Below, in pieces: positions 1 through 62,062 of a stretch of 64,000 nt of DNA. The position numbers were made by a program, and so were the translations under genes. The stretch spans positions 5,891,001-5,955,000 of the forward strand of contig NC_003075.7 in assembly GCF_000001735.4 (NCBI RefSeq). The letters run 5' to 3'. Position 1 is the stretch's first letter. Each line of letters begins with the position of its first letter. The DNA comes from Arabidopsis thaliana (Eukaryota; Streptophyta; Magnoliopsida; Brassicales; Brassicaceae). Under the pieces are notes generated by a model. The model worked only from the letters and a program-made list of their open reading frames with translations. It ran no database searches and was not told the origin of the DNA.

Positions 1-199
1 GCGGTGTCTTTGAAAAAAAAACTCTTCTGTTAGATCTTGAACTGATTGTAATCTGTAACCTAATAAATCGTGAACCACGGGTCTAGAATTATGACGCGTT
101 CGTTGTGGTATGGGCAGGGATCTCGCTGGAGCCTCCGGGCGAGGACTTTCATATACGCAGCAATATGCTGTACAAAAATAAAACCAACCCAGACAAAAA

Positions 200-360
200 A
201 AACAACAACATTAACTCACCATTATCTACTTTAACTCAGGCAGAACAATACCATAACTTAGACATAACCAACTACAACTCAGTCTGCACACCAGAATAAA
301 CCAGCTATAATTTATTTAACTCAGCCTAAACAACACGATAACTCAGCCATAAAATAGACA
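200..360. repeat. Intronic TAACTCAGCC motif array, copy 1
   Basis: Loose repeats of an A-rich phrase built on TAACTCAGCC(A/G)TAA, mixed with variants such as AACTCAGGC and CTCAGTCTG. They lie in what should be an intron of the Ulp1-type relic. On the gene's own strand the core reads GGCTGAGTTA. The same core fills the arrays near 3.0-3.3 and 4.0-4.3 kb. Confidence 0.7.
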
Positions 361-1349
361 ACCTCAGATAGAATATAACAATAACTTACTTCATCACCCA
401 ACCATCCATAATTTGAATCTGGCCATAACTTTCTTTCGGTCATGAAAACTCCGTAGAAATCAACCTCGTCTATTCCATTTTCCAACGATTTTTTGCTAAC
501 AAATAATAAAAGAAAGTTAATATACACAAATAGTGTAAGCATGTCGTACTTAACAACTTATTAAGGTATAAAGGGTCATACATGTCGAGACTTGACAAAT
601 AATCCTTAAGTTTCTGCATGCAATTTGGACTCAGAATCAACTGGATGAAAAAACAGTCTATGTGTATCCACGCATGAATGATTTTTCCACTGGCCAGCTC
701 ATATACCGACCAGAATGATTCTTCTTCCCTTTCAGCAACTAACGGCTCTGCAAAAGGGAACATATATAGTGATATATAACTGATCTGTCGCAAGAACATG
801 ATGACCATTTCTTCCTAGTGAGTATTTTGAGTGAGGGGGGAGTTTTTAGCCTTGCTCTTATGATTTAGGGATTTTCTTATTCATGACAATATTGGACCCC
901 TAGGTAGTACTAATAACAAGAGAGGGTTTTTGTTTTCAAATGTTGGTTTACTGGTTAGGCTTTTATTCTCCACCATGGTATGGTTCCTATAAAGCTACAT
1001 AAGAATTCATTTTGAAGTTTGTTTGGTGTGTGACTGAAGAACCAAAAAAAAAAAAAAACAGTTGCTCATTCTTTGTCTACTTATCTCACTATTCGGCAAT
1101 GCATATACGTCCTAATCTTTGTTTTGCTTATCTTAGTTATTCTATCTCTCTCCCTTACCTAAAAAGCTGGCTTCAAAGGACTTGACGGATCGTTTATAAA
1201 ACAGACTAGTCATAAACATAGATTTATATTCGAGATGGCTTCAAATACGAATCTTAAACTGTTTATAGTATATATAGTATCTAATAGCTGCGGGTGTTGT
1301 GAAAGGGAACTTAGTGTTGACCATGGTCATGGAGTTTAACCAAGAAGTT

Positions 1350-2247
1350 TGTTGAACCAAGGATTCACACAATAGATTTGTTTAGAGAGGGAAAACAAAT
1401 CTAGTAATTTCTCTTCATTAGGTATTCTATCCAAGACTCGATTACAAGAGGGGTTCTAATCTCTTATGAAATACATTAGGGTTTTGCTCAAGAACAGAAA
1501 AAGAATTAAAGTTTTAAAAAGGTATAGCTGCATCCATGATGGATTGCCTACGTACCCTGTGAAGGGATCAAGCCATTCGTAGTTCTCAATAGGTATAAAG
1601 TTCTATGTTTCTTGTGAATATCCCAAGATCTCCCCCTTTTTGTGAAGTCCCTAAGGCACTTTATATAGGATCCTTAAACCGCCTCCCTAACGATATTCTT
1701 CGGAAGATTCTTATTTATCCTTAGGTCGGTTCTAGAGGATAATCGTCCTAAGGATATTCTCCTTATTCTTCGGAGGTTTTGGGGAGATTTCCTGATTTCG
1801 ACATTATCTTCAAAGATTCTCCTTTATCATTTCTGAAAGTCCCATAAAAGATCCCATTTTACCGGAAATGATCCTTGGAGAATGAATGGTTTTTACAAGT
1901 CTTTGCCTCGCGTGTTCTTCACGGCTCGGTGGTCGTTTGAGAGGTGGCTTCGGGGCAAACGGTATGTACCGGCTCGGGGCGCGCTTGATGACTGTCCATT
2001 AAGCTCAGTTGGCTGTCTCCCGAGCCGATATAGATGTTTCCCGCAGCGTTCTCACGATTGGCTCAGGCTGTGTTCATATGATTAACACCCGAGCCATTTT
2101 ACAAACTCTCTTCGGGACGGTCGATCGAATAAGGTCCCGAGGTGCTTTGTTCTAGGCTAGGGGCCAATCATATGTTTACCCATGAGGTGATTGTTATTCT
2201 TAGACTGTTTGGCTCGGTCTTGCTTGTGGGGGAATCCGACCCCAACA
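1350..2247 (-). mobile_element. Solo LTR inside PDF1 relic (copied version)
   Basis: 898 bp with termini TGTTG...CAACA. It is flanked by AAGTT on both sides (1345-1349 and 2248-2252), the 5-bp target duplication typical of LTR retrotransposons. When it is left out of the reading, the flanking PDF1-like coding sequence becomes continuous, which fixes both ends. No internal retroelement region is present, so it is a solo LTR. Orientation is inferred from the LTR-like layout on the minus strand. GC-rich tracts around 1900-2110 are part of the LTR and not a gene. Confidence 0.85.
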
Positions 2248-2252
2248 AAGTT

Positions 2253-2414
2253 GTACCTTGACGGAAGAGAGCACGAATGGGATCGGTGCGGGTGTCTGGA
2301 AAGTGCCTGAAGAAGGTTCATGTGATGATCAAACTCTGGAATGCTACTGGGAGTACTGACTGTACCAAAACCTCCTCCAACAGTGCCACAGGGAACAAGC
2401 AAGCCCCATATCAA
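2253..2414 (-). pseudogene. Truncated PDF1-like fragment (copied)
   Basis: Minus-strand reading gives IWGLLVPCGTVGGGFGTVS and SSIPEFDHHMNLLQALS. These match my memory of the C-terminal domain of Arabidopsis PROTODERMAL FACTOR 1 (a proline-rich epidermal cell-wall protein). A frameshift and then the solo LTR follow; the continuation is at 1349-1285. This copy lacks the proline-rich start seen at the donor locus because the copied segment stops at 2414. Confidence 0.75.
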
Positions 2415-3010
2415 CAGTTTTTCTCCTAACAGCTTTTACTCTCTCCAGCCTCATGGTTTTCTCCTCATCTTCATCAGACTCAGGCAGCAGGCGATTATCT
2501 TCAGCTACCCACTAGTCAGTAACATCAAGTATAGAATCATCATCAGCTACTCTCTCACCGTCAGCTTTTTCCTTGGCTTCCTCAGGCTTAGTCTTGGGGA
2601 CAGAAGAAGTATCACCGTCGGCTTTTTCCTTGGCTTCCTTAGGTGATTTTGGCTTTTTTATTGTCACCTTTGGAGTCACCTTTGTAGCAGCCTTTCTTCC
2701 TCTTTTGGCTGGCTCTTTCACAATTAGCTCATTTAAGGTTTTCTCCTAAACATTACCTTTCTTCTTTGGTGATGTCTTCGCTTTGGAAATTCTCCTCGCC
2801 GCCGTCATAGAGCGTAAACGGCGGGAATCAGGAGACTTCTCAATAAAATCAATATCAGAATTGTTTCCATCAGTGGCCTTAGCAAATTCTCCATCAAGAT
2901 TCCTACTAACCCCAACCTCAGCAAAATCAGCATCCTTCTCTACCACCGAATCTAAAACTTCTTTCGACTACATAAACGTAAAGAAAACTCAGGCTTTAAA
3001 TAACAAAAAC

Positions 3011-3260
3011 TCATGTCTATGTATAAATATAACTCAGCAGTAACTAAATAAAAGCTATAACTCAGCCGTATAATATGCAGATAACTCAGCCATAACTAAA
3101 TAAAAGTTATAACTCAGCCGTATAATATGAAGATAACTCAGCCGTATAATATGCAGATAACTCAGCCATAACTAAATAAAAGTTATAACTCAGCCGTATA
3201 ATATGAAGATAACTCAACCGTAACTAAATAAAAAGTAATAACTCAGCCATTAGCTTACCG
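3011..3260. repeat. TAACTCAGCC motif array, copy 2
   Basis: At least eight copies of a roughly 30-bp phrase such as AGATAACTCAGCC followed by GTATAATATG or ATAACTAAATAAAAG. Two longer phrases alternate, so the array has a higher-order period of about 60 bp. It occupies an intron of the Ulp1-type relic. Confidence 0.85.
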
Positions 3261-4014
3261 GAGGAGGACTAGTAACAGATTGGTTATTTGTAGGTTTCCT
3301 TGGACCTTTTGGTGTCTGTTGAGTTTGGGGTTTAGGGTTGCCTTGCTGCTCTTTGGTTAAAAACATTTCTCTAATAACCACTCTAGAGTTTAATTATGAG
3401 TCAGCTATGCCAGTTTGGCCAGTTAGGCCTACCCCAATGACCTTCAGATGCTCTTTCATCTATTTGACCTCGTTTTCAATAGATGCAAACCTTCTTTCAA
3501 ACTTTGCATCAATCCTCGCTTCTACTTGATCTCCAATCACCTCCAGACGGGAAGACATTTCTTTGATGCTATTATCAACGGTGTCAAACCTTAAGTTTAA
3601 GGGAGAGATTAAGTTGGACACCACATCCACGAACGATTGTTCTCCCCGAACATTATGCTCGTCCTTGTCCTCATCAGATTCGACAACTACTTCCTTCTTC
3701 TTATTCTTCTTCTTCTTTTGTGCATCTCCTCCACCAGAATGAACACCCTGACTGTGAGAGACTTTCTGCTTCTTTACGGGAGATTCAGACACATCCGCAT
3801 CTTTATCTTTTACGAGTTTCTTCTTCTTCTTCTCATTCGTCTTCACATCCCAATAACCTTTAACAAGCTTAGCCTCGTGTATGTCTTCGATCAAGTGATT
3901 GAGTGCTGGGTCTTCTAATTCGTCTGGCCAAGTATGAAACAGCTCGCTTAACTCAGCCTTCGGAACCATTTAACGCACACGCAGCTACAACACAAGAGAT
4001 AATAAAACCCATCA

Positions 4015-4262
4015 GTATGTTTAACTCAGCCATAGTATAACAAAATCTCAGTCAAAACATAAACCAAACTCAGTCATATCATAACAGAAACTCAGCCATA
4101 ACATAAACAAACTCAGCCATATCGTAACAGAAACTCAGCCACCAATGTAAGGTTAAACCATAACGCAATCACAACATATAACAAACTCAGACACATATGA
4201 ATTGATAAATCATAAATCAGTCGGCAAACAGACGATAACTCAGCCATCAAATCAAATAGATC
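4015..4262. repeat. TAACTCAGCC motif array, copy 3
   Basis: About ten variants of AACTCAGCCAT or AACTCAGTCAT separated by ACATAACA-type spacers. It lies upstream of the Lys/Glu-rich exon, in the putative first intron of the Ulp1-type relic. It shares the core with the arrays near 0.3 and 3.1 kb but has different spacers. Confidence 0.8.
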
Positions 4263-4394
4263 TAACAAATCGGCCACCATATGTCAATCTATGACGGCGT
4301 TAGAAACCATCGTTAAAAACCATCATTAAGCAACGGAAAACGATTTCAGTAACGGGAATCACTTGCGATTGAACTTAGATGTTGGATTCTTGTC

Positions 4395-4503
4395 GGAAAA
4401 TTTGAAATAAAGTTTGGAAACATACTTACCGGAACTTAGAGAAGTTCAGTTCAAATTCAAAATAAAGTTTGGAAACATACTTACCGGAACTTGATGATCC
4501 ATT
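4395..4503. repeat. Short tandem duplication around the putative first exon
   Basis: A phrase of about 50 bp containing AAATAAAGTTTGGAAACATA and CTTACCGGAACTT occurs twice head to tail. Each copy carries a minus-strand GT donor after a CAAGTTCCG-like end, so the putative first-exon splice donor of the Ulp1-type relic has been duplicated. Confidence 0.6.
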
Positions 4504-4578
4504 TTAGAACCTCCATTTAATTTTTAATAGAAAATATCCTCAATTAAGAAAGTATAATAAAAAAAAAAACCTCAATTA

Positions 4579-8007: not shown

Positions 8008-9689
8008 ATGGTAATATCTTCATTCAACTTCAGCGATCTTGTTCTTAGTATCCTGATTGGATGAATTTGTTACTTCAGGAAACTCCGAAGATCGTAGTAA
8101 CGAGTGAAGATTGGGAATCGAAGCTAAGTGATGTGGAAATTTTGATAGAAGACATGAACAGACTCGTGATGAATCTTCTTGTGGCTGAAGGATATAGAGA
8201 AGCTGCTGAGAAATTCAAAGAGGAGTCTATAACTATGCGTATCCTCTCTGATGATGATTCATGTTTAAACTTGTGAAAGAAATTTCTTTGATTCTTTCTT
8301 GTTCTGATGATGGTGATGATGATGCTTGTGAAAGTCTGGAAGAAATTTCTCAGATTCGTTCTTTTATGGTGATGATGATGCTTGTGAAAGTCTGAAAGTA
8401 ATTTCTCAGATTCTTTCTCTTATGATGATGATGTGATTCGTGTTTAAATTATATGATGATGCTTGTGAGAGTGTGAATGAAATTTCTCAGATTATTTCTC
8501 TGATGATGATTCGTGTTTAAACTAGTGAAAGGAATTTATTAGATTCGTTCTCTTCTGATTCGGATGATGATTCATGTTTAAACTTGTGATTTGTGTAAGA
8601 ACTTTCTCAGATTCGTTCTCTTCTGATGATGATGATTCTTGTTTAAACTTGTAAAAGAACTTTTGTTAGATTCTTTCTCTTCTGATGATGATGCTGCTTT
8701 AAAAGTGTGGAAGACATTTCTCAGATTCGTTCTCTTCTGATGGTGATGATTCAAGTTTAAACTTGTGAAATAACTTTCTGCTTTCAGTTCTTTTTTCCTT
8801 TAACCAGAAACAGCAGAGGAAGATCTTGCTAGCATGAATGAGCGATTGGAGGTGATAAAAGCTATCGAATCCCGAAATCTCGAGGATGCAATTGAGAAGT
8901 TGAATGCACTAAACCCTGAGGTATATGGAGTTTCCTAAGTGCTTAAGAGAAGAAATAGTTGGATATCTCATTACTTGTTTTTTGGTTTTTGGTGTTTGTA
9001 GATTATCAAAACAAGTTTTCACCTCCACCAGCAAATGTTGATCGAGTTGATCCGTGAGAAGAAGACCGAGGAGGCTGTTGCGTTTGCACAGGAAAAACTC
9101 GCGCCACTAGCTGAGGAGAATGTGAGTCTTTAGCAGATTCATCTTATAATAGGAGATTGGAACTGGTCATAAACAAATTCTGCAATCTTATGCAGGAGGC
9201 CTTACAAAGAGAACTGGAAAAAACAGTGTGTATACTCGTTACTGAAGGTCTCCCTAACTGCCCGTCCAGGGAGCTTTTCCACAACTCGCAGTGGATTAGG
9301 ACTGCTAGCCACGTAAACGAAGCAATCCATACAAGCCAGACTGGAGAAAAAGGTATATGGCTATACTTTTTACTGACACAGAAAGTGAAAAATAATGAGC
9401 TTATCTACCAAAAAACAGAACCAGTTGTTTATGATGGCCAAAAGTGTCATAATTACAGTCCCTAGTTGCTCTCATGTGTCTTTCAGATTTCCAGCTCTTG
9501 AAACTTTGTCAATGTACCAAGTGAGATGATGATGATGTTATGTTTTGTGAATTGTCAACAGGTCCTGAATTGGAGCGCTTGTTGAAGGAGCTGATTTGGA
9601 CTCAGAATCAACTGGATGAAAAAACAGTCTATGTGTATCCACGCATGAATGATTTTTCCACTGGCCAGCTCATATACCGACCAGAATGA
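8008..9689 (+). CDS. GID8-like LisH/CTLH/CRA protein
   Basis: Six exons: 8008-8010, 8079-8238, 8808-8920, 9002-9121, 9196-9352 and 9562-9689, all with GT..AG introns. They join to 226 residues with no stop. The start codon is alone in exon 1 (ATG followed by GTAATA), and METPKIVVTSEDWE follows after splicing. An ATG at 8061 inside the intron is a weaker alternative. A LisH motif lies near residues 27-59 (MNRLVMNLLVAEGYREAAEK), CTLH near 65-122, and CRA to the end (TASHVNEAIHTSQ, LIWTQNQLDEK). This is the plant family of GID8/TWA1, a scaffold subunit of the CTLH/GID E3 ubiquitin ligase. It probably corresponds to At4g09300. Its last exon and downstream DNA were copied to 623-2414. Intron 2 is a minisatellite. 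Confidence 0.85.
8239..8807 (+). repeat. Minisatellite filling intron 2 of the GID8-like gene
   Basis: Eight to nine degenerate units of about 50-75 bp, each combining CTCAGATTCGTTCTCTTCTG, GATGATGATGATTC and GTTTAAACTTGTGAAAGAA. The first unit begins at the splice donor itself. GAT runs are polymorphic between units. The array makes up almost the whole intron. Confidence 0.9.
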
Positions 9690-11383
9690 TTCTTCTTCCC
9701 TTTCAACAACTAACGGCTCTGCAAAAGGGAACATATATAGTGATATATAACTGATCTGTCGCAAGAACATGATGACCATTTCTTCCTAGTGAGTATTTTG
9801 AGTGAGGGGGGAGTTTTTAGCCTTGCTCTTATGATTTAGGGATTTTCTTATTCATGACAATATTGGACCCCTAGGTAGTACTAATAACAAGAGAGGGTTT
9901 TTGTTTTCAAATGTTGGTTTACTGGTTAGGCTTTTATTCTCCACCATGGTATGGTTCCTATAAAGCTACATAAGAATTCATTTTGAAGTTTGTTTGGTGT
10001 GTGACCGAAGAACCAAAAAAAAAAAAACAGTTGCTCATTCTTTGTCTACTTATCTCACTATTCGGCAATGCATATACGTCCTAATCTTTGTTTTGCTTAT
10101 CTTAGTTATTCTATCTCTCTCCCTTACCTAAAAAGCTGGCTTCAAAGGACTTGACGGATCGTTTATAAAACAGACTAGTCATAAACATAGATTTATATTC
10201 GAGATGGCTTCAAATACGAATCTTAAACTGTTTATAGTATATATAGTATCTAATAGCTGCGGGTGTTGTGAAAGGGAACTTAGTGTTGACCATGGTCATG
10301 GAGTTTAACCAAGAAGTTTGTTGAACCAAGGATTCACACAATAGATTTGTTTAGAGAGGGAAAACAAATCTAGTAATTTCTCTTCATTAGGTATTCTATC
10401 CAAGACTCGATTACAAGAGGGGTTCTAATCTCTTATGAAATACATTAGGGTTTTGCTCAAGAACAGAAAAAGAATTAAAGTTTTAAAAAGGTATAGCTGC
10501 ATCCATGATGGATTGCCTACGTACCCTGTGAAGGGATCAAGCCATTCGTAGTTCTCAATAGGTATAAAGTTCTATGTTTCTTGTGAATATCCCAAGATCT
10601 CCCCCTTTTTGTGAAGTCCCTAAGGCACTTTATATAGGATCCTTAAACCGCCTCCCTAGCGATATTCTTCGGAAGATTCTTATTTATCCTTAGGTCGGTT
10701 CTAGAGGATAATCGTCCTAAGGATATTCTCCTTATTCTTCGGAGGTTTTGGGGAGATTTCCTGATTTCGACATTATCTTCAAAGATTCTCCTTTATCATT
10801 TCTGAAAGTCCCATAAAAGATCCCATTTTACCGGAAATGATCCTTGGAGAATGAATGGTTTTTACAAGTCTTTGCCTCGCGTGTTCTTCACGGCTCGGTG
10901 GTCGTTTGAGAGGTGGCTTCGGGGCAAACGGTATGTACCGGCTCGGGGCGCGCTTGATGACTGTCCATTAAGCTCAGTTGGCTGTCTCCCGAGCCGATAT
11001 AGATGTGTCCCGCAGCGTTCTCACGATTGGCTCGGGCTGTGTTCATATGATTAACACCCGAGCCATTTTACAAACTCTCTTCGGGACGGTCGATCGAATA
11101 AGGTCCCGAGGTGCTTTGTTCTAGGCTAGGGGCCAATCATATGTTTAACCATGAGGTGATTGTTATTCTTAGACTGTTTGGCTCGGTCTTGCTTGTGGGG
11201 GAATCCGACCCCAACGAAGTTGTACCTTGACGGAAGAGAGCACGAATGGGATCGGTGCGGGTGTCTGGAAAGTGCCTGAAGAAGGTTCATGTGATGATCA
11301 AACTCTGGAATGCTACTGGGAGTACTGACTGTACCAAAACCTCCTCCAACAGTGCCACAGGGAACAAGCAAGCCCCATATCAA
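9594..11383 (+). repeat. Donor copy of the segment inserted at 623-2414
   Basis: This copy keeps its natural context: it starts inside the last GID8-like exon and ends within the PDF1 relic, which continues another 110 bp. The two copies agree at about 99.5 percent by eye. The solo LTR end is CAACG here but CAACA in the 2.2-kb copy, so this base changed here after the copying event. Confidence 0.9.
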
Positions 11384-49149: not shown

Positions 49150-52100
49150 CTTGATGAACCTTAATTTGTCACCGATATTGTTGGAATGGACGTTGACATG
49201 GAACGACTGAATCCTCTATTGAGCATCGAATCTGAGAATGAGGTTCGTATGATCGGAATCTGGGGAATGGGAGGCATAGGCAAAACCACCATTGCCAAGT
49301 GTCTCTATGAAGAATATTCGCGCCGATTTGTTCACTATTGTTTCATAGAAAACGTTAGGATTTTTGCAAAGAATGGCCTCCCATATTTGCAGGAAAAGCT
49401 TCTATCTGAAATCCGAGGCAAAAAGCAAGAGACCTTATGGAGCGTGGAGAAGGGATGCAGACTTATCAAGTCGAAGCTCAAGGAAAAAAATTTCCTTGTC
49501 CTTGACGATGTGGACAATGTGGACCAGCTGCATGCCCTAGCAAAAGAGACGAGCTGGTTTGGACCAGGGAGCCGAATCATCATAACTACACGAGACTTTG
49601 GCTTACTCTACTCCTTTGGAGTGAGATTATTATACCGTGTTAGCTTTTTGGATGACAATGATGCTATCAAAGTCTTTAAACATGTTGCTTTTGACGGAGG
49701 GCAACCTCCTTTTGATGTCTACCATCAATTCTCAGTCCGTGCTTCTAGGCTTGCTCAAGGCCTTCCTTCAGCCCTTGAGGCTTTTGGCGTATATCTCTGT
49801 CGGATTCCCTGGATAGAGGGAGTGGGAAAAGGCGTTGGGCATTCTTGAAACAGTTCCTCAAAAACGTATCAAGGATATTTTAAAAACTAGCTATGACGGT
49901 TTAGACGAGGAAGAGCAAGCTGCGTTCCTTCATGTTGCATGTCTATTCAATGGAGACTCTGTCCACCGGGTAAATGCCCTTATCGATGATGGTGACATGA
50001 GGATAAAAGCTTTAGAAGTGAAGTCTCTCATAGACATATCACTTGATGGATGCATTACATTGCATGTCTTGATAGAACAAGCGGCAAGAGAAATTGTACG
50101 TCAAGAATCCGGGTTCATGCCTTGGAGACAGAGAATTTTGTGGAAAATTAATCCTATCATCTTTTTGCTGCAAAAAAACACAGTAAGTGTTATTAAAACC
50201 TTTGCATGACGTTCTTTCTTGTTCGAATCTCCATGGTTTTGGCCATGCTTATATTGTTTTCATGTCAACTGACTCTGACGATTCTCACATCAGGATACAG
50301 CAATGGTTGAAGGTGTAGCACTTCACATGTGTGAGATGATACACGTGTTGCCTATCGACGGAAATATTCTTAACACTATCAACAATCTCAAATTCTTCAA
50401 GGCTTTCACGCATATAGAGGTTATGAATTCCAAATTGCAGTTTCTTCCAGGCACAGCTAACAATTCAGGGGTGTAGAGATCATTAAAACCTTATCACTGA
50501 GTTTTCACCGTCTTTTGTGGTTTTCTTATATCCAGGGCCTTGGTCAGTTGAGGAGACTAGATGTTACTGGCTCTAAGAATCTGAGAGAAATTCCAGATCT
50601 CTCGAGGACCATGCTGCTCGAGGAGTTGATAATGAAAGGCTGCACAAGATTGGAGAAAACTCTAGAGTCCATTGGACGCTTATCTTGCCTGAGAAAACTC
50701 GATTTATCAAACTGTGATGCCTTAATAAATCTTCAAATCCATATACAGTATCAGAAAAGGCTGTCCTTCCAGAACGTGGACTAAGGCGACGCCGACAAAT
50801 AATATTGAGGCTTCCCAGAGGAGTAAAGAAGCTGAGTTCTCTTGCAAACCTATCTATAGAAGGGAAGATACACATCGGCTTGTGGCATCTCACGGGAACC
50901 GTAGAGCACCTCTCCTTTATTCCGAGCAAAAAATCCCTGATGAATTGGTAATGGTGCCAAAGAAAAGATTTCCGATCATCTCAAGCTTTTATGATCTTAA
51001 ATCTCTCAGCATCATGCGGTTTAGCCACATTGCAGATGGTACCCCCTTCCGTTGCATTAGCTTCTCAGGTTTCCAGTGCTTGGTAGAGTTGAATCTGATC
51101 AACTTAAACATCCAGAAAATCCCAGACAACATTGGTCTAATGCAGTCACTAGAGAAAGTGGACCTCAGCGGAAATGATTTCAGGAATCTACCCGCATCAA
51201 CAAAGAACCTTTCGAAGTTGAAATACGCGAGGCTCTCTAATTGCATCAAACTCGAGGCATTTGTAGAGCTGACTGAGTTGCAGACGCTCAAGCTTTCTGG
51301 TTGTACGAACCTCGAATCTCTGCTGGAACTTCCTTATGCGGTTCAAGATGTAGGCAGATTCTGTTTGCTAGCGCTTGAGCTTGATAACTGCAAGAATCTC
51401 CAAGCATTATCAGAACAGCTAAGCCATTTCAGCAATTTAATACACTTGGACCTAAGCAGCCACGACTTTGAGGTGCAAGTGTAAAAGAGCTATTATCGCT
51501 GGAAACTCTGTGCCTAAATAACTGCAAGAAACTCAAATCAGTGGAAGAGCTTCCACTAAACCTCAAGCATCTCTACGCACACGGCTGTGATTCCCTGGAA
51601 AGTGTCGACCTTTCCCCAAAGCATTCAATCAAACACCTCGATCTTAGCCATTGCTTCGGTTTGCAACAAGATGAGCAACAGATTACACAATTTCTAAACG
51701 ACAAGTGTAGCCAAGAGGTGACCTTCGTTGTTGACTGCTAATGTTAACTGCTATTTTCTTTTCTTCTAATCCTCTCTTGTGAACAATTCGCTTTCTGTTT
51801 TTATAGGTTTCACAAAGATTTCTTTGCTTACCAGGAACTGAAGTACCCAGAAATTTCGATAATCAGTCACATGGGACATCGACGAAGATCAGCTTGTTTA
51901 CACCGACACTTCTGAGTTTCGCTGCCTGTATCTTGATTTCTTGCGAGAGGTCCTTCTACCTCCAATTCCCAGCGTTTAGTTATGATTGGAACCGCAAAGA
52001 TGATGAAGTAATTTCGATTAACCTCACACCAAATCTCAATCTTTCATCGGAGATTGAGGAAGAAGAGACTGTAACATCACATCACCTGGTTATCATCCAC

Positions 52101-52280
52101 GTACCCAGTAGCATAAACACCGACAAAATCGAAGATTTGCGACTCGAATCCTCTCTTCAATTTCCAGAGGAGTTTCAGTTTTCACCCTGCGAGATAAGAG
52201 CTTGTGGAATTCGCATGGTTGACGAAGAGACTAAATGTCTGGAGAGCTCACCTCTTATGCCACTATTGGAGAAGAAATAA
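49150..52280 (+). pseudogene. NB-LRR resistance gene pseudogene (TNL class, TIR missing)
   Basis: The NB-ARC part opens at 49186: P-loop GMGGIGKTTIA, kinase-2 FLVLDDVDN, RNBS-B GSRIIITTRD and an altered GLPSALEAFG. A one-base insertion near 49822 shifts the frame just before EWEKALGILETVPQ, which continues at 49835-50209. Later exons are near 50294-50476 (ends in a stop), 50515-50784, 50882-51484 and 51541-51741; LRRs are clear (LREIPDLSRTMLLEELIM, LEKVDLSGNDFRNLP, LDLSHCFGL). A final exon from about 51808 reads LPGTEVPRNFDNQS, the C-JID domain at the end of TIR-NB-LRRs. No TIR coding is found upstream (stop codons). TNLs sense pathogen effectors and trigger immunity; this copy cannot make a full protein. 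Likely related to At4g09360. Confidence 0.85.
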
Positions 52281-52639
52281 TCACTCGTGCCATTCTTATG
52301 TTTGGAATATTATTATTGATTTTTATTTAAATCGAAAAATGAGAAAAGGACGAAAAACTCTTGCGAAACCACAAAAACTACAAGAAAACTTAATTTGTTG
52401 GGCTCGGATCAAAAAAAAAATGTAAATACTCGGCCCAGTTGTATTATTTACAGAAAAAACCTAAGTAAAAACCTAAGTTCCCCCTTTTCACTTCTCGACT
52501 TCTTCCTCTTCTCTCCGTCGTCGTCTTCTCTCGTCTCCGACGATACCACTTTCACCGGAAAAATCAATCTCTTCTATTCTTCTTTCTTCTCCGTTTTCGT
52601 TCGTCTTTGTCTCTTTCATATCCGCAAATTTATTTTCCA

Positions 52640-55070
52640 ATGGCTAGAGTAAAAGACTCATCTGGAGAATATGAATCAACTAGGGTTGAATCGACCGGCG
52701 AAATTCCTCCATCAGTCGACGAGACCGCCGCCGAGATTCCCCGAAGAGATGAAGAAGGCGCAGAGCTTTTTACAACAGAAGAGGAAGCCGGAGAAATTCA
52801 GCCTACAACCGGCGATTGTGACGCCGCCGATTTGGGTAATTCAAACGCCGTCGCATGGGAATCAAATGACGATCTTTCAGACCCAAATGCCGATTCTTGT
52901 GCAGAAGAAGAAGAGGCAACGAATGCAGTTGTTCAACATGATGATGGAGCAAATAAGGTATGATAGAAGACCGTTATTTTTTTTGATTAGGCTCGTTTTA
53001 GGATATTATGCATGCATTGGTAAATGATTGGATTTGTGAATGGTGCTTCAGATAAAACAAGTAGTACAACTAGGTCGTAAATTTGTGAATGGTCATTCAG
53101 GAACAAGTAGTACAACTAGGTAGTTAATGTGAAATTGAAAGTATTTTGAATTGAATATGCAGGATGATGGTGATGATGATAACCTGCCGCAGAATATGCA
53201 GGATGGTGATGATGATCTTCAGCCGCAGAATATGCAGGATGATGATGATGATGATGATGATAATCAACCATTGCCGCCAGAAGTTATGTACTTTGATCCA
53301 ACTACCTACACGAAGGTGTGTAAGATAGGAACGAGGTGTCAGTTGGTACAAACAGTGGAATTTATAGAGACTTTGGATGCAGAACTGAAGTGGTTTAGGA
53401 ATCATGACCAATTTAAGCACATATTCCACATGCCTAAGGAGCCCAATCACATGATTCAAGGCATGTGGATGCTTATGGTTCGCACGGCTAAGACAGAATT
53501 GGAGAGAGAGTGTTGGTTTGTTGTCAATGGAGTACCTATAAGGTACTCAATTAGAGAGCATGCATTGTTGACCGGTTTGAACTGCCGTGAGTACCCAAAA
53601 AACTATAAGACTTTAGGCAGTTTGAAGTTTGTGGAGAAGTTGTTTAAGAGGACTGAGGACATCAAGATTAAAGACGTGGAAGAGAAGCTGGAAGAGTTTA
53701 AGAGTGAGAAGTCTACTGCTAGGTTGAAGTTGGCAATTCTGTTATTCTTAGCTAAGGTTATGAAAGCTGATTCTAAAGGGGATTCGAAGATAGAGGAGTT
53801 TTTGCTTAGGATTGTGGATAATGTCAGAGCTTGTGAGACATTCCCGTGGGGACGTTTTTCCTTTGAGCAGTGTATGGAAGGGGTGCGGAGAGTAATGAAG
53901 AACATGAAAGGTGTGGTGAAACCCAAGGCACAGACTGCTTTTTATGGATTTATTACTCCACTTGAGGTAAGTAGTCGAGTAAATTATATGAGTGGCTAGA
54001 TTTTGTTATTGTGAACTTTCATTTACTTTTATGTTTTTGTGTCTAGATTCTGGCATTTGAGTGCATTCCGCAGCTTGGGAAGAGATTTAGAGAAGCTGTA
54101 CGTGCAGACAAGGAATGTCCAAGAATGTGCAAGCACAAGTTCAGTGAAAGTTGCATGAAGGGATTTACTTTGGAAGAAATAAATGAAGCACTTGGAGATA
54201 TAACGGTTAGCTTTGTTCTCTTGAAATCTATGTTTATAATCTTTGTGGTGTTTGAAATATATGTTTACTTGACAGGATATTTCAAGCATCTTGGAACCTG
54301 ATATGGATGAGAGAAAAATGTTGTCACGCGTTGTAGAGAAGCATGTTGATGATGGTATTGGATATATCGATCCAATTGTTGATAGTTGGAGAGAGAGGCT
54401 TATCGTAGAGAAAAAGAAGATTTTCTGGCGTAGTCTCTACCAAGCAGACATTGATGGTAGACGTATTGAAACTGTTGATGATGTTCCAGCTGTACCTGAA
54501 CCTGAAATCCCTGGGACATCGATTCTCTCGTTCAAGGAAGCTATGGAGAGAGGATTTGACAAGCTCACGGACAAGCTTGCTGTGATGGATAGCGAAATCA
54601 AGCGGATTTGTGTGAGAGTACAAGGAATAGAGGAATATGTGGCAGATCAGCTTGAGAAAGAGGCAGAGAAAGACAAATATGAAGATATGCGTCCTGGTTC
54701 AGCTGCTGATTTTGTGCCACCGTCTTATCAGCCAAGGGATACTCAGAGCAAGGCCTTGGTTATTCACAGTGGAATCCGTGACCCAGCACCTCCAACTATT
54801 GAGTCTCTAAGTGAGTTTTTGTTGAACTTTTGTGTAGTGATGCTTTCACAATAGTTCTTACATGTTTGGTTACATATTTTTGTAGGTGATGGCAGCGATG
54901 AGTCCGATGAAGAGGATAAGAAGAAGAAGAAGAAGAAGCAGATATCGAAGAAGAAGAGAAAGCATGTTGGTCCTACTCTGGAATCTGGGAAAAAACGTGG
55001 AAGGAAACCTTCCAAGTATAAGGGGGAAGAGTTTACAGCTGAGGGGAAGCAAACGAGGAAGAGACTTTGA
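52640..55070 (+). CDS. DUF1985-family protein, transposon-associated
   Basis: Five exons, 52640-52957, 53163-53966, 54047-54205, 54276-54810 and 54886-55070, all GT..AG and in phase, join to 666 residues with no stop. Residues 1-106 are acidic (MARVKDSSGEYESTRVE start). An Asp-rich repeat (NMQDDDDDD) follows at about 107-145, then a DUF1985-type core at about 150-300 (ECWFVVNGVPIRYSIREHAL, FPWGRFSFEQCMEGVRR). A coiled region comes near 470-560, and the basic tail KKKKKKKQISKKKRK looks like a nuclear signal. DUF1985 proteins in Arabidopsis are often parts of Ulp1-carrying Mutator-like elements; no protease part follows here. Function unknown. Neighbouring genes are a GRF zinc finger and a MuDR transposase, both on the other strand. 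Confidence 0.75.
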
Positions 55071-55237
55071 CTTTTCTTTCTTGCTTATGTGTGTGTGTGG
55101 ACTCTTAGGTGTTTGGAGAAATAGGACTTTCTTTTTGTGTATTTGGGAATGTTATGCGTAGTTTATGTGTAGAGGACAAACTTATTTTCTGTAATGGTTT
55201 ATGTGTTTTAGGATTTTATTAAAATCAAAACGTTTGG

Positions 55238-55362
55238 CTAAGTTGTCCCGGTTGGCCGGTCAATAATACAAGAGTAGCTAAGTTGTCCCAGTTGGCCGGT
55301 CGATACACATAACTTAAAATACAAGAGTAGCTAAGTTGACCCAGTTGGCCGGGACACCCAGA
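55238..55362. repeat. CAGTTGGCCGG motif array
   Basis: Three units of GTAGCTAAGTTGTCCCAGTT followed by GGCCGGTCAATA and variants. A fourth unit is at 55785-55842, and further single motifs occur at 56894 and 57440-57480. All lie in noncoding DNA flanking the GRF and transposase genes. Confidence 0.8.
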
Positions 55363-55369
55363 GAGAGTA

Positions 55370-55745
55370 GCTCGTCAGTTCTTCAAACTCCTTAGCTCGT
55401 CCTCAAGCTCCTTAGCTCGTCCTCAAGCTCCTCAGATCGTCCTCAAAGCTCCTCAGCTCGTCTTCAAGCTCTTCCCATCACAGCGACCATCTCCTCGCCT
55501 AGCTGTCAGCTAGTCAGCTCGTCCGACTCCTCGTCTAGCTATCAGCTCATCCCTCGACTACAAAACTCATCTACCTCCTCGCCTAGCGGCAGTTCGTCCA
55601 TTGACTGCATAGTCCACCTATCTCGTCGCCCAGCTCGTCTATACCTTCAGCAGACAACTCGGTTTGTCCAATTCGCCTCTCTATCCAGCTCGTCGCACAT
55701 CTACCTACCTTAAAATTTTCGTACGACTCCTCGTCTAGCTGTGAT
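55370..55745. repeat. CAGCTCGTC-rich degenerate repeat
   Basis: More than fifteen copies of GCTCGTC, AGCTCCTC or CTCGTCTAGCT words with irregular spacing. Includes the left arm of an 80-bp inverted repeat. No coding frame. It is the 3' side of the GRF zinc-finger gene. Confidence 0.7.
55428..55507 (+). repeat. Left arm of 80-bp perfect inverted repeat
   Basis: Runs from CTCCTCAGATCGTCCTCAAA to CTCGCCTAGCTGTCA. The right arm at 56634-56713 is its exact reverse complement as far as I can read. The arms enclose the GRF zinc-finger gene. Confidence 0.88.
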
Positions 55746-55897
55746 TCGTGTATCAACATTTTCGTACACAACTTAAAATACAAGAGTAGCTAAGTTGTCC
55801 CAGTTGGCCGGTCAATACACATAACTTAAAATACAAGAGTAACATATTTAGGTTCAAATGCCATACACCATCCTCAATAACATAAAACACATCATAA

Positions 55898-56405
55898 TCA
55901 CCATGTAGAAAGTAATGCCCTAAGCCTATCAATCTCGACTTTTTTGGCGAGTAACCTTTCTTTAAGGGTTTCAATTTCACCTTGCATGAGTTGAATAGTT
56001 TCCCGGATGGACTCCAAAGCATGATTGCATGCTAGTTGTCCATGTCTTAGTGCGGAATCAAGTTTGTGATTTACCTTCTCAAGCTCCTCAGTTACCGCCT
56101 GATCCCACCACTGAATAAGGTGGTTTCGGGACTCGTACTCTTCATCCTGCGAAAGAGAGAAGACTTCATAAATATAATTCACTTGTACTTTGTTGTTCCA
56201 ATGAAATGAAAACACAATAACTTACTTTAAGCATTGGGCATTTGTAGACTCTGTCGCCTTGCCTGTAACCAGTTTTGCACACTTCAAGTTTTACAGGCTT
56301 ACCACAAAAACATTTTTCTGGAACCCCCCAATTTGCATCGGCATTCGCCTCTCCACTATTCCAACTAGCTTCGGACGTGGATGGTTGAGAGTAACTATAG
56401 GGCAT
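55898..56405 (-). CDS. GRF-type zinc finger protein, 142 residues
   Basis: Two exons, 56405-56226 and 56146-55898, joined in phase. The N-terminal 30 residues are polar and Ser-rich (MPYSYSQPSTSEASWNSGE). A GRF-like zinc finger follows (CFCGKPVKLEVCKTG, RVYKCPMLKDEEYESR, LIQWWDQAVTEELEKV). The rest is a coiled coil (LMQGEIETLKERLLAKKVEI) ending LRALLSTW. Many plant GRF relatives end in a membrane segment, as the broken copy at 63.5-64 kb does; this one stops earlier. GRF fingers bind single-stranded nucleic acid in known proteins; here the role is unknown. It is enclosed by an 80-bp perfect inverted repeat and lies between the DUF1985 gene and the transposase, suggesting a shared mobile unit. 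Confidence 0.65.
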
Positions 56406-56449
56406 CTACAGAACAGAGAAAGAAAGAGATATGAATCATGAACGCTATA

Positions 56450-56575
56450 AACCCTAGATCTACTAATTACAGCGGCTAGAAACCCGTAAGAAACCCTAGA
56501 TCTACTAATTACGGCGGCTAAAAACCCGTAAGAAACCCTATATCTACTAATTACGGCGGCTAGAAACCCTTTAGA
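56450..56575 (-). promoter_or_regulatory. Three 47-bp repeats with GCC boxes and telo-boxes upstream of the GRF gene
   Basis: On the gene strand each unit has AGCCGCCGTAATTAGTAGAT then CTAGGGTTTCTTACGGG. Two units contain the exact GCC box AGCCGCC (target of ERF factors) and one has AGCCGCT; all three contain AGGGTTT. They sit 45-170 bp upstream of the ATG, in the leader or core promoter. Confidence 0.6.
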
Positions 56576-56633
56576 AGAAGAGAGAAGAACGAGAGAGAGG
56601 AAGAACTCCAGTGCATGTAATACCTTGGTTGTT

Positions 56634-56713
56634 GACAGCTAGGCGAGGAGATGGTCGCTGTGATGGGAAGAGCTTGAAGACGAGCTGAGGAGCTTTGAGG
56701 ACGATCTGAGGAG
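56634..56713 (-). repeat. Right arm of 80-bp perfect inverted repeat
   Basis: TGACAGCTAGGCGAGGAGAT to CGATCTGAGGAG, the exact complement of 55428-55507. It lies in the upstream region of the GRF gene. From 56720 to 57300 I see AT-rich DNA with isolated CAGTTGGCCGG motifs. Confidence 0.88.
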
Positions 56714-57300
56714 AGAAGTGAAGAAGAGAGAAGAACGAGAGAAGTGAAATAGAAGAGAGAGAGAGAATAAATAGGTAGAAACTTTGTAGTGTGAACGCAA
56801 TAATCGTAGTGTGAACGCGACTTCGTGGGATCTATTTTTTAAAAAAATTATTTATTAGAATATTCAGAATACACATAGTTGTATGTATATGTACAGTTGG
56901 CCGGAATCACAAACAGTTGAACTATTCTAAATTTTGTGTTTTTGAAGTTGAATCTGAAAAACCAACTCATTTTTTTAGTTGGTCCCATAAGTTTTAACAT
57001 ATTAATGGATTTTAATAAGTTTTGATAGAATCATATTTAGTAAATATCTGTTTTCATACATAACGTATGTATATTGGACAATCATGAACTATATGTTCCT
57101 TGTCATACATAGGTGATTTATTAGGAAACCAGTTTATGATCAAGTTTATTAATAACAATGTTGTAATATCATATTTTGGATTTATTCAATGTTTAGATGT
57201 TGATAATAGCTGAAAATATTGAGAATTATTTTATCATTTTATTAATCCTAAAATACAGATACATATATCAGTTGTCTCAGTTGAACTTAAAAAAATACAT

Positions 57301-57362
57301 TAAACTTGCAAATAATTCAATAAACTTGCAAAGAATTCAATAAACTTGCAAAGAATTCAATA
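57301..57362. repeat. Three 20-bp tandem units
   Basis: TAAACTTGCAAAGAATTCAA three times with one variant base pair. Just downstream (57430-57495) GGTTGAACCCTTTCTGCA occurs twice around a CAGTTGGCCAGG motif, at the 3' end of the transposase gene. Confidence 0.9.
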
Positions 57363-57498
57363 CAAATACGAAAACATAAAACATAGTACATCACACTTAC
57401 AAATAATATAATGCAAATACAAATGAACTTAGTTGTATTGGTTGAACCCTTTCTGCAGTTGGCCAGGTTGTTCTGGTTGAACCCTTTCTGCATCAGAC

Positions 57499-59874
57499 TT
57501 AATCTTCCTCAGGCTGCAGCCAAGCCTCCAAGTTTATTCTAGGTTGCGATTTTCTCCTCTTTCGCGCTTCACCAGCTGATGGAAACCGCTTCTCTTGATT
57601 TCGTCCTGGTCCTTTTGGTGTGTATTCCGGCGGAAAGGCAACTAACTCTTTAATATGGGCAGGAAGAACCCAAACCGACTCATGTGGGACTACATACAAC
57701 GTCCGGTAATAGGCCAATGACCAACTATCTATCAAGTAATACACAGAGCAGAGTCCGTAGATGGTTGTATTCGCATTTCTCCCTTCCTTGCGGGCGAGGT
57801 GCCTTGCTGCGGCCATAGCATGGACACACGGGATCTTGTCTATATCAAAACGTTTGCATGAACAACTTTTCATTTTCAAATCCACCAGAAAACTTACCGA
57901 GTTGAGATCAATCACGTTGTATTCTTGGTTGTAACTGTTAAGCTCAAACACAGTTAATTTGGCTGCAACTTGACATCTAATGTGCAATATGTTCTCCACA
58001 GTAGGCACAACTTGTGCTGTGATTGGACAAGAACCTGAAGCTTGCCTATGCTCGTTGAACCATTCAGAAAACTTAGAAATCATCACATCAATCATTGGTA
58101 ACAAGTGATATTTTCTCGCTTTTTTAAACACACCATTAATGGACTCCGCAGAATTACTAGTGTCAATGTTATACTTGTCTCCTTTAAAATGGCACCTCGA
58201 CCATTTCTCAAACCCTACTTTCACAAGAAAGTCAGCAGCTTTAGGCCATAAACTTGTAAAATGACCAAACTCTTTCTCGAACTCACTCTCAGTATATGCA
58301 TGAGCACAATCCCTGAACTTGACAGCAGCTCCATCCTTGTCAATTTTCACACGATCTCTCATGTTTTGACACAAATGCCATATACAAGCTGCATGAAGCG
58401 CATTCGGGTACACCGTCTTGACAGCCTTCTTTATGCTTTGATGCCTATCACTAATAAAGACCAATCCGGGAACATCCGAATATACAGTTTTCAGGTTTTC
58501 TAAGAACCAAATCCAACTTACATCCTTCTCGCTATCAATGATTCCAAACGCAAGTGGATAATGATGATGATTAGGATCTTGTGCTGTTGCAATAACCAAC
58601 ATCCCACCATACACAGTTTTAAGATGAGTTGCATCCACAACTATCACTTTCCGCATTGCCCTAAAACCTTCAATGCAAGCGCCTAATGCAATGAAGAGGT
58701 ACTTGAACTTTTTCTCTCCTTCCAACTCCACATAAGTTACTGTCCCTGGATTTACCTTCTCTAACATGTAAAGATAAGAAAATAACATCGTGTAGCTTCT
58801 TTCCGGAGTCCCTCGCACATCACTAACATGTAGCATTTTGCCTCTTAAGGCAGTGGAGTATGAACAATGCACCCCAAGTCTTCCTCTTACAATCGACATA
58901 ATGTTTTTTGGAGTTGGGGTCTCTAAATTTCCGGGATAATCACAATGCAAAACCGATGCTATTAATCTTGGTGTGCCTCGCTGTATACTATTGCTTGTAG
59001 TCTCAACACTCCGAGAGCATGTATGCATCTTTCTATGCATTCTAACACTCCAAAAATGAGATTTCTTAGTTCTCGCAACTCTTAGATACCAAGTACACCC
59101 TTTAGAAGCTTGGCGGCATCGTAGCATAAGTCTCAACGGGTCTGACTTAATAGTATAGACTCCAAAAACTTCTTTCTTTGCAGCTCTGTTAACCAATTCC
59201 CACACAGCCTCCCTTGAACAAAATTCTTGACCAATTTCAATACCCGTACCATCATCCCATTCTATAACCTGCGGAGTAACTTCTACACTTCGTGGAATAT
59301 CGTGAATATCATCATAATCAATCCTATCATCCTCATCTTCTTCCTCAACAGAATTCACCGGCCTTTCCATCGGCCTTTCGACAGCCACGATCTCCGTACC
59401 TACTACATTCTCACAATCATTCACATCATTATCATATCCATCATGCACCATCTCACATACTTCATTTAAAACATCATCCTCTATTACATTTACACCAACT
59501 GAACTTCGACGCTCCGGTACAGAAATTTCCTCTCTCCTCTCAACTCCTATACCATTTAATTCCTCCACATGCAAAACAGGAATCCGACTCTCTTCATCAG
59601 ATTCTGTTAAAAATATGAAGACATCCTCATCATCTACAATATATGTCTCTCTCCTAACTTTAGACAGATTGTAACTCAGTTTCAACTTGACAGAAGCTTC
59701 ATCAATCGCAACCTTCTTCATGATCTTGTCAACTAACATCGAATAGCTAATCTTCTCCAAACTACTCGTCTTAAACGATATAGCATATAGTGAATTTTTA
59801 CCAATCCACTCATTCACTTCAGAATAGTATCCTCCAAAGTCAAAATGTACCTTAGTGTGGATCTTCTTCTTCAT
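57499..59874 (-). CDS. MuDR-type (MULE) transposase, apparently intact
   Basis: One uninterrupted exon of 791 residues. The start MKKKIHTKVHFDFGG is chosen because the only in-frame codon further up is not ATG and a splice acceptor TTTTCAG sits 5 bases upstream. That implies a leader intron back to about 60313 (donor AATTAG/GTCAGT). Domains: PB1-like N-terminus (1-90), acidic linker, Mutator DNA-binding domain about 205-290 (RLMLRCRQASKGCTWYLRV), and an RNase H-like MULE domain. Catalytic residues are D414 (VIVVDATHLKTVYGG), D476 (VFISDRHQS) and E577 (SNSAESINGVF), with HAACIWHLCQNM between. A SWIM zinc finger lies at about 670-690 (CSCKRFDIDKIPCVHAMA). The basic C-terminal tail may be nuclear. 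All key residues are present, so it could be active. It is the mobilising enzyme for this cluster if suitable ends exist. Confidence 0.93.
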   Translation of the reverse strand: MKKKIHTKVHFDFGGYYSEVNEWIGKNSLYAISFKTSSLEKISYSMLVDKIMKKVAIDEASVKLKLSYNLSKVRRETYIVDDEDVFIFLTESDEESRIPVLHVEELNGIGVERREEISVPERRSSVGVNVIEDDVLNEVCEMVHDGYDNDVNDCENVVGTEIVAVERPMERPVNSVEEEDEDDRIDYDDIHDIPRSVEVTPQVIEWDDGTGIEIGQEFCSREAVWELVNRAAKKEVFGVYTIKSDPLRLMLRCRQASKGCTWYLRVARTKKSHFWSVRMHRKMHTCSRSVETTSNSIQRGTPRLIASVLHCDYPGNLETPTPKNIMSIVRGRLGVHCSYSTALRGKMLHVSDVRGTPERSYTMLFSYLYMLEKVNPGTVTYVELEGEKKFKYLFIALGACIEGFRAMRKVIVVDATHLKTVYGGMLVIATAQDPNHHHYPLAFGIIDSEKDVSWIWFLENLKTVYSDVPGLVFISDRHQSIKKAVKTVYPNALHAACIWHLCQNMRDRVKIDKDGAAVKFRDCAHAYTESEFEKEFGHFTSLWPKAADFLVKVGFEKWSRCHFKGDKYNIDTSNSAESINGVFKKARKYHLLPMIDVMISKFSEWFNEHRQASGSCPITAQVVPTVENILHIRCQVAAKLTVFELNSYNQEYNVIDLNSVSFLVDLKMKSCSCKRFDIDKIPCVHAMAAARHLARKEGRNANTTIYGLCSVYYLIDSWSLAYYRTLYVVPHESVWVLPAHIKELVAFPPEYTPKGPGRNQEKRFPSAGEARKRRKSQPRINLEAWLQPEED

Positions 59875-60320
59875 CGCTCCTGAAAATACAACCAGTTCAA
59901 CTCCAATCAAACATTTTAATAGTTATACCACATGTACTCTTATCATACGTTGAAATCAATCTCTCGTCGCACTCGATTCTACTGAACCTAATTCGTTACC
60001 TTTCAATTGATTTCCAATGTTAATACATACCTATTCGTTAAACTAATTGGTTAATCTAAACTTTGCAAACACAAACCCCCCAAATCTTTAATATGAAATC
60101 TCGGAATTCAAATTCAACTCACATTCAACCTACATTCCTTTGCTCATCACCTCAAATAACGTTTCGGCAACCTCTAATCGATTACTCTTTACTTTGCAAA
60201 CCAATCATCAAACTATCAAATTGAATCGAGCTGGGAATTATATAGAATTCAAAATCCCAATCTAAAATCACAATGCACCAATGTCAAAGGAAATATGAGA
60301 AGAAACTGACCTAATTCGTG
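59875..60320 (-). other. Leader intron and first exon of the transposase
   Basis: Minus-strand GTCAGTTTCTTC near 60312 and TTTTCAG at about 59880 delimit a likely 5' leader intron of 430 bp. No other gene is seen. Confidence 0.5.
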
Positions 60321-60529
60321 GCTTTTACGCCGGATTTCAAGTCGGCGGCATGAGGAAATCGATGGTGGCCAACGAAGAAGATGAACGTCGACCAAAGAAG
60401 AAGAACACGACGACGAAGAGGAGAATCTCCGAACTCGATTTTCTTTATTTAGCTTTTGAATTTCTTTTTCATTTTTTTAATCAACTCATTAAGGGTACAA
60501 CTGGTATATCACATTTTCGGTGGCATTCA

Positions 60530-60655
60530 GATTAACTGATGGCAGTCCAGATCAGTTTTTTCAAAAAAGTGGCATAAGTGATAAAAGTTCAAATGTCTGG
60601 AGTGCCACTATCTGCGAAAAAGTAACCAGGAATGCCACTCTTCTAATTCCCAATT
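60530..60655 (-). other. Candidate terminal region of the Mutator-like element
   Basis: On the minus strand: GGGAATTAGAAGAGTGGCAT, TTACTTTTTCGCAGATAGTG, ACTTATGCCACTTTTTTG and related words. Repeated GTGGCA/TGCCAC words and a G-run start are typical of Mutator ends, and TGCCAT words also mark the MITE at 42666. I could not find a matching left end, so this is a guess. 60321-60530 is probably promoter. Confidence 0.3.
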
Positions 60656-60915
60656 TTTGTCGAATTAAAGATAAATGAGAGAAAATCCAAATAATTGGCA
60701 AAAGACCAAAAACTCAGACGACCCAACAAAATATCCGATCCAATTAAGATCCATGCCTAGCAACCCAAAACCCATTCCAAACACTTAAGCGAAATCCCTA
60801 ATTTCTAAAATCAAACCGTTTCTACTCTCATTCAATTCAAATTTTCCAAAATCAAATTCATAATTTCTCGCCTTTCACAATTTTCCGACGAATTCTTGAT
60901 TCGTGTAATAGTTTG

Positions 60916-61890
60916 ATGACTCGTGTTAGAGACGGTATTGATGGCCCTGTATATGATTCGACGGAGAAGTCGTCCGGTGAAGTTTCGACATCAGAACCAG
61001 TTCCTTCAGAAATTGAAAACGACGGAGATGCCGCCGGAGACGGTAAAGGTGGCCCTGTATATGATTCGACAGAGAAGCCGTCCGGTGAAGTTTCGACATC
61101 AGAACCAGTTACTTCGACGGACAAGCCGTCCGGTAAAGTTTCGACATCAGAACCAGTTACTTCAGAAATTGAGAACGACGGAGATGCCGTCGACTTGGTT
61201 CCGACCGAACCAGCAGCACGAGATGTTGCGGCGAATGATACTACAAAAGAAACCGCTAAGATTGAAAAGGCTATGGAGGAACCGCGTGATGGTGATGAGG
61301 CTTCTCCTAAAGGAACCGCCGAAATTGAAGAGGATCAGACAGGTACATCTTTGAAACCTCTAATTGACGCTGTCATTCAACAATTCGAAGAAGCGAAAGA
61401 CGGGAATGGGGAGGAGCTGGAGGAGGAGGAAATGGTGAATACAATTCTAAAAGAAGGGGTAGAGAACGTTAATCGTCAGGCATGTGGGTGCTTATGTTAC
61501 GCATAGTGAAGACAAATTTGCTCGAGGAGGCTTGGTTTGTGGTAAATGGAGTACCTATTAGGTATTCCATTAAAGAGCATGCGTTGTTAAGTGGGTTTGA
61601 TTGCCACAGTTCCCCAAAAGAACTAAATACAATGGGGAATATTAACTTTGTTCGAGGATATTCAAAAAAGAATCTAGGATAAAGGTTTTAGATGTTCTTG
61701 CTAAGTGCTCGAAGATGAAGCATGGTTCAGATAGGTTGAAGTTAGTGCTGTTGTACTTCTTGGTCAAGGTAGTAAAAGCTGGTGCAAAGAATGATGGAAA
61801 CATTGAAGAGTTTCTGTTAAGGATTGTTGGCGATTTGAATGCGTGCGAGACGTTTCGACTGATTAGTTCAAATGGTTCGACTGATTAGTT
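60916..61890 (+). pseudogene. Second DUF1985-family gene, broken
   Basis: The first frame (60916-61506) starts MTRVRDGIDGPVYDSTEKSS and contains direct repeats of the 35-residue unit GPVYDSTEKPSGEVSTSEPV plus linker, then acidic linkers. At about 61480 an internal deletion fuses it out of frame to the DUF1985 core: the next frame reads EAWFVVNGVPIRYSIKEHAL, closely matching the intact protein at 53.5 kb. A further shift follows near 61680, and the sequence LKLVLLYFLVKVVKAG and EEFLLRIVGDLNACETF ends at 61858, where a motif array begins. It cannot make a full protein. Confidence 0.8.
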
Positions 61891-62062
61891 CAAATGGTTC
61901 AAATGTGTTCGACTGGTTAGTTCAAACGGTTCGACCTATATAGTTCATCCAGTTCGACTGATTAGTTCAAATAGTTCATCCGGTTCGACTAATAGTCCAA
62001 ATGGCTCGACTAAGTTGTCCAAATGGTTCGACCAATAAAGTACCTCCGTTCGACTGATTATA
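61855..62062 (+). repeat. GGTTCGACTGATTAGTT motif array
   Basis: Ten or more degenerate units of GTTCGACTGATTAGTTCAAA with variants such as GTTCGACCTATATAGTTC and GCTCGACTAAGTTGTCC. It starts inside the DUF1985 pseudogene at ACGTTTCGACTG and runs into AT-rich noncoding DNA. Confidence 0.88.

Follow-up and report, generated by a model that had tools for sequence, protein, structure and literature searches.

Three probable VANDAL Mutator-like units, each with its own DNA words, in a 64-kb region of Arabidopsis thaliana

We analysed 64,000 bp of Arabidopsis thaliana DNA (contig NC_003075.7, C4:5891001-5955000; hereafter the window, with positions counted from its first nucleotide). The window very probably (about 93%) contains three VANDAL Mutator-like members, each with a present or former VANC gene and with arrays of short DNA words belonging to the family of that VANC; the intact unit would be a complete VANDAL6 encoding VANC6 (AT4G09370). 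We refer to the intact unit as group A, to a broken DUF1985 gene at 60.9 to 62.1 kb as group B, and to an Ulp1-type relic at 0 to 4.3 kb as group C. Here we establish the anatomy of the units, the family-by-family match between words and proteins and, in a predicted model, the shared fold. A VANC would bind its arrayed short words through the DUF1985/DUF287 fold; DNA methylation would then drop locally and later across the whole element, after which the element genes could be expressed. The first-pass annotation had described three units with their own motif arrays, and this observation is partly confirmed: all three words exceed chance, but the relic at 1 to 4.3 kb yielded no DUF1985 match.

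The intact VANDAL6-type element

The group A unit is a complete VANDAL6-type Mutator element of 8349 bp (52242 to 60590). Its ends, at 52236/52241 and 60590/60591, are where homology to two other copies stops, and it is bracketed by the 9-bp direct repeat AAATGTCTG, a target-site duplication at 52233 to 52241 and 60591 to 60599, the longest exact match between the left and right flanks being 12 bp. Target-site duplications of VANDALs are typically 9 bp long. The sequence CTTATGCCACT is common to both element ends in inverted orientation, within surroundings that match poorly, as expected for VANDALs, the ends of which are degenerate (PMC10398659). The unit thus has the degenerate terminal inverted repeats and short target-site duplication of this group.

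The gene for VANC6 (52640 to 55071, plus strand) was assembled from five exons with borders placed by eye (52640-52957, 53163-53966, 54047-54205, 54276-54810, and 54886-55071). The spliced frame encodes 666 residues with no stops and matches DUF1985 (98.9 bits) and DUF287 (88.3 bits), both over the Pfam cut-offs; its closest match, an A. thaliana protein, is 95% identical over the full length. A predicted model of the group A DUF1985 protein shares its fold with DNA-bound VANC21. On the minus strand, VANA (57499 to 59874) is a Mutator-type transposase with Plant_all_beta (126.8 bits), MULE (77.3 bits), and SWIM (38.7 bits) matches. An apparently broken gene of the NB-ARC/LRR disease-resistance type, as judged by eye, lies directly upstream of the element (49186 to 51484).

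We recognised a nucleoside diphosphate kinase gene at ~32.5 kb and an NB-ARC gene at ~49.3 kb by eye from their motifs, and the DUF1985 gene comes after the latter. This fits AT4G09320 ... AT4G09360, AT4G09370, which we take to be the order of the genes at this locus.

According to Hosaka et al. 2017 (PMC5735166), DUF1985 and DUF287 are the domains of VANC proteins, and AT4G09370, located in VANDAL6, is VANC6, whose words are AGTTGTCC and AGTTGTAC. The same paper reports that VANC6 binds a region dense in these words in vitro, and that methylation is lost in trans for AT4G09370. The window unit resembles the published system in its locus (by position and family), in its DUF1985 plus DUF287 protein, and in the presence of AGTTGTCC and AGTTGTAC in noncoding element DNA; it shows no essential difference. 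The window protein is therefore a VANC, beyond the mere analogy proposed in the first-pass annotation, and most likely VANC6 itself. Its suggested role as a self-recognition factor is supported by the domains and by the in vitro binding; this idea is correct and already established, having been shown on what is, almost certainly, the same gene. Published work on VANC21 and VANC6 shows that both bind DNA in vitro (for VANC21, mutated words were also used) and that methylation is lost in a sequence-specific manner. VANC21 has also been localised at its own words in plants, and its crystal structure with DNA has been deposited (PDB 9LNJ, 9LNK). VANDAL21 (Hiun), which encodes VANC21, differs from the window element in its word, YAGTATTAY, which is not above chance in the window (5 scattered matches versus 2.88 expected; 17 of 100 shuffles reach this count).

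Word counts in the window were compared with 100 dinucleotide shuffles, none of which reached the observed number for any of the three words that follow. Word A, CAGTTGGCCGG, has 6 matches at one mismatch or fewer (0.20 expected), all within 55249 to 57466. Word B, GGTTCGACTGATTAGTT, has 5 matches at up to three mismatches (0.17 expected), all within 61852 to 62063, and word C, TAACTCAGCC, has 22 at up to one mismatch (2.48 expected), 18 of them within 232 to 4245. Twelve A-type words (AGTTGTCC, AGTTGTAC, and AGTTGGCC) were found in the window element, 11 of which are noncoding by the eye-set exon borders; for AGTTGTCC and AGTTGTAC taken together, six of seven are noncoding.

Word A turned out to be real but only half of a dimer. 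The plus-strand array at 55241 to 55811, which includes the CAGTTGGCCGG words, combines AGTTGTCC with AGTTGGCC: AGTTGTCC immediately precedes CAGTTGGCCGG or its one-mismatch form at 55241, 55281, and 55793. Across 11 sequences (the window element, L055-L063, and L069), an exact AGTTGGCC follows 9 bp past AGTTGTCC in 26 of 52 AGTTGTCC words. The combined form AGTTGTCCNAGTTGGCC, allowing one mismatch, has 48 sites genome-wide (control, 3), of which 46 fall in the 11 CAGTTGGCCGG clusters. Relative to the published VANC6 description, the addition made here is that, in this element and its copies, many CC words open a dimer with 9-bp spacing, AGTTGTCC-N-AGTTGGCC.

Words and proteins across the genome

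The words were sought in the 119.66-Mb assembly (7 contigs). This gave 45 sites for CAGTTGGCCGG versus 4 for its reversed word, 866 for TAACTCAGCC versus 98 for its reversed word, and 44 versus 0 in the control for the 20-mer GTTCGACTGATTAGTTCAAA at up to two mismatches. A group A DUF1985 gene lies in the same element in 10 of the 11 CAGTTGGCCGG clusters, the other (L063) having words without a DUF1985 match. Each of the six word B clusters is accompanied by a gene of group B or the remnant of one, and all seven fetched relatives of the group C relic carry 7 to 17 TAACTCAGCC words, antisense to the open reading frame (ORF). Among the 30 best-scoring other DUF1985 loci, each examined over 3.4 kb (1.5 kb either side of the match), none has CAGTTGGCCGG or word B; one has a single TAACTCAGCC, two have a single AGTTGTCC, and one has a single AGTTGTAC. 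The genome-wide lists likewise give no A cluster and no B site near these loci. The co-variation of motif and protein subfamily, proposed earlier as a check, was thus found genome-wide for words A and B and on the fetched loci for word C.

In a tree of 49 domains, B (n = 5) and C (n = 4) form clades with support values of 0.999 and 1.0, respectively, and A forms a clade only with L064 included, which is labelled wordless there. Word labels change 4 times on this tree, versus a minimum of 13 in 2000 shuffles, a descriptive comparison in view of the dependence among family copies. L064, a group A protein with no words within 3 kb, was considered as an exception and rejected: the rest of its element, with the words, lies 7.8 kb farther on. 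This locus (L064/L069, C5:12467500-12478400) has a group A VANC gene split within its fourth exon: the halves are separated by 7.8 kb of other DNA with four ORFs of >200 amino acids (aa), retroelement-like by eye.

Within each group, the loci represent a single element in several copies, and common ancestry would be enough to produce such co-variation. The words could accordingly be by-products, inherited tandem repeats bound by nothing and linked to the proteins through common descent. We consider this improbable. For group A, it is opposed by the in vitro binding of VANC6 to the region dense in AGTTGTCC and AGTTGTAC, and by the AT9TSD1 elements, which are unrelated to VANDAL but contain the same words and are likewise demethylated (PMC5735166). 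The model fold, predicted to match DNA-bound VANC21, and the noncoding position of 11 of the 12 A-type words also argue against it. For groups B and C, the results computed here leave room for it.

That the words are promoter or enhancer sites of a host factor is highly improbable, even though many of them are located between element genes: words A and B are each limited to one element family, scattered singles aside, and words differ between close relatives within one genome, a pattern that a host factor common to all would not account for. There is next to no chance that the words are read by the GRF zinc-ribbon protein, the other recognition factor suggested in the first-pass annotation, since its ORF (56.2 to 56.4 kb) adjoins the array but its GRF match is weak (PF06839, 18.7 bits at 56169-56405, cut-off 25.9; GRF-type ORFs at 55898 to 56405, minus strand), demethylation still occurs with a VANDAL21 transgene from which VANA and VANB are missing, and the proteins that bound DNA in vitro were VANC21 and VANC6 (PMC5735166).

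Several observations weigh against the reading of the window as three VANDAL members with VANC-specific words. Five of the 12 A-type words in the window are AGTTGGCC, one base off the published AGTTGTCC; one AGTTGTCC word, at 56034, sits in a coding ORF; and 9 of the 45 CAGTTGGCCGG sites are scattered singles. A TAACTCAGCC site at 3949 is also inside an ORF, that of 169 aa in the relic, so that the placement of words in noncoding DNA, as first described, is true of most but not all of them. The shuffle test overstates significance, as copies within one family are dependent events. Of 297 DUF1985 candidates, 150 were scored; one match, C3:14137771 (unfetched), scores equal to a group B locus, and no B site is listed for it. 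The group C survey drew on the first-listed of the 866 TAACTCAGCC sites and on 8 fetched ORF matches of 29. The AT4G09370 number rests on position, family, and gene order. Finally, the data of this study are sequence and a fold model, and the binding and methylation evidence comes from published work.

The group B remnant and the Ulp1-type relic

The group B VANC remnant (60913 to 61856, plus strand) comprises a 5' coding part and a broken DUF1985 domain, the two pieces of which (40.1 bits, and 19.2 bits, the latter under the cut-off) are split across two reading frames. Its DNA from 61478 to 61856 is 87 to 96% identical to all five group B copies fetched. Some group B copies, such as C4:2162470, retain an uninterrupted DUF1985 frame. 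A Pfam scan of pieces of the 60.9 to 62.1 kb unit gave no DUF287 match; frame-split and cut by a deletion, the unit lacks an intact DUF1985 plus DUF287 protein. The group B copies have 1.4 to 1.5 kb between the DUF1985 match and the start of the array downstream; in the window, a deletion junction joins the two at 61850 to 61856, where the matches to DUF1985 and to the array overlap by ~7 bp. Therefore, the GTTCGACTGATTAG array (61852 to 62063, plus strand) is the ordinary downstream array of the family, moved by the deletion, and not the natural end of the gene, as it had been described earlier. A DUF3287-family ORF (62226 to 62567, minus strand; PF11690, 40.2 bits, cut-off 27) adjoins the array.

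The group C relic (1 to 4309, minus strand) is, judging by its homologies, a truncated derivative of an Ulp1-type VANC gene. Homology to each of the seven relatives fetched covers parts of 212-618 and 2413-4309 and ends at 4309. Positions 1 to 170 (minus strand) are the right part of an Ulp1 match (Peptidase_C48, PF02902; C4:5890526-5891170) that begins left of the window, with 166.3 bits, 3 internal stops, and the same strand as the 169-aa ORF (3460 to 3969, minus strand). A Pfam scan of five relic pieces gave no family over the cut-off, and Ulp1 was seen only by the genome search. The 169-aa ORF has 29 genome matches, including itself and fragments, the best relative being 88% identical; in relatives it lies between DUF1985 and Ulp1. 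In two of them (C2:5192003-5195759 and C3:12106767-12110570), DUF1985, the 169-aa ORF, and Ulp1 follow in order on one strand, with DUF1985 0.5 to 0.6 kb upstream of the ORF. DUF1985 was not found in the first 6.5 kb of the window by tblastn with a query that also missed some relatives, and no relic DUF1985 was among the 150 candidates scored out of 297. The TAACTCAGCC arrays (232 to 4245, plus strand) are antisense to the relic gene.

The middle of the relic, 623-2414, is 99.5% identical to 9594-11383 (1.79 kb, copies 9 kb apart), and this pair is a recent insertion or duplication. Left of the window, the Ulp1 matches C4:5873224-5873868 and C4:5890526-5891170, 17.3 kb apart, have an equal number of stops and near-equal scores, an indication that the relic was segmentally duplicated.

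The Kaonashi (KIU) VANDALs have a VANC with a captured Ulp1 domain, and VANCs carrying Ulp1 recognise motifs of their own kind, according to a review (PMC13317346, citing Sasaki et al. 2022 EMBO J e110070 for the former). The relic and its relatives resemble KIU in having DUF1985 (in the relatives), the 169-aa ORF, Ulp1, and a family word. The spacing of adjacent words shows modest coherence, with local maxima at ~10.5 to 11 bp in groups A, B, and C, calculated without a null model and on dependent tandem units, and is not used as evidence. VANC words in general reportedly act by sequence, density, and helical periodicity, and at least ten VANC systems are said to exist, with DUF1985, DUF287, and Ulp1 gained and lost.

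Three TAACTCAGCC arrays far from DUF1985 matches were fetched (L047-L049). L047 is a 1.8-kb repeat, of which 12 copies including itself match over a span of at least 1695 of 1801 bases, and L048 and L049 are further members of this family. Of 10 group C DUF1985 genes, 6 are followed on their own strand, at a distance of 10.3 to 20.3 kb downstream, by stretches matching parts of ~677-1800 of L047; for the other four (C1:14275879, C3:12199479, C4:3558361, and C5:14783664), there was no L047 match within 30 kb among those listed. In the simplest reading, the L047-type repeats would be non-autonomous derivatives with the same words.

The group B and C proteins presumably bind their linked words. 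The dimer version of the VANC6 word, together with words B and C, could be new, to a modest extent; in a text search of the literature (supplements excluded) for five word strings, the 10 papers listed out of 67 matching ones concern unrelated subjects, judging by title. We tentatively suggest, as a possible but rather doubtful proposal, that groups B and C represent two further VANC specificities, namely, a VANC6 relative (47 to 55% identical) reading GTTCGACTGATTAG and an Ulp1-type VANC reading TAACTCAGCC and also serving the 1.8-kb non-autonomous elements with the same arrays, and that the VANC6 operator is a 9-bp-spaced direct-repeat dimer in which one protein or a pair would read two unequal half-words. 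If so, the sister families A and B would offer a natural comparison of how an 8- to 14-bp target is switched by changes inside a single known fold. The window led, from sequence alone, back to the published self-unsilencing transposons that read a private DNA word, and adds to them the VANC6-word dimer and a clean genomic set of word-protein pairs, among them two sister families whose words differ. Together with the VANC21-DNA structure, these additions could be used to learn how such proteins change their target.

Other repeats in the window

The stretches at 17.5 to 22.0 kb and 26.0 to 31.4 kb share several matches in direct orientation, mostly of 94 to 96% identity, and retroelement-type ORFs (Copia-like by eye) flank the former at 15 to 17 kb and 23 to 25.7 kb. 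At 18880-19410 and 44180-45040, GATTTACAAAGGATTTTAAA-type units form arrays that are paired with arrays of the inverse unit; the two places are alike and perhaps represent the ends of one DNA-transposon family.

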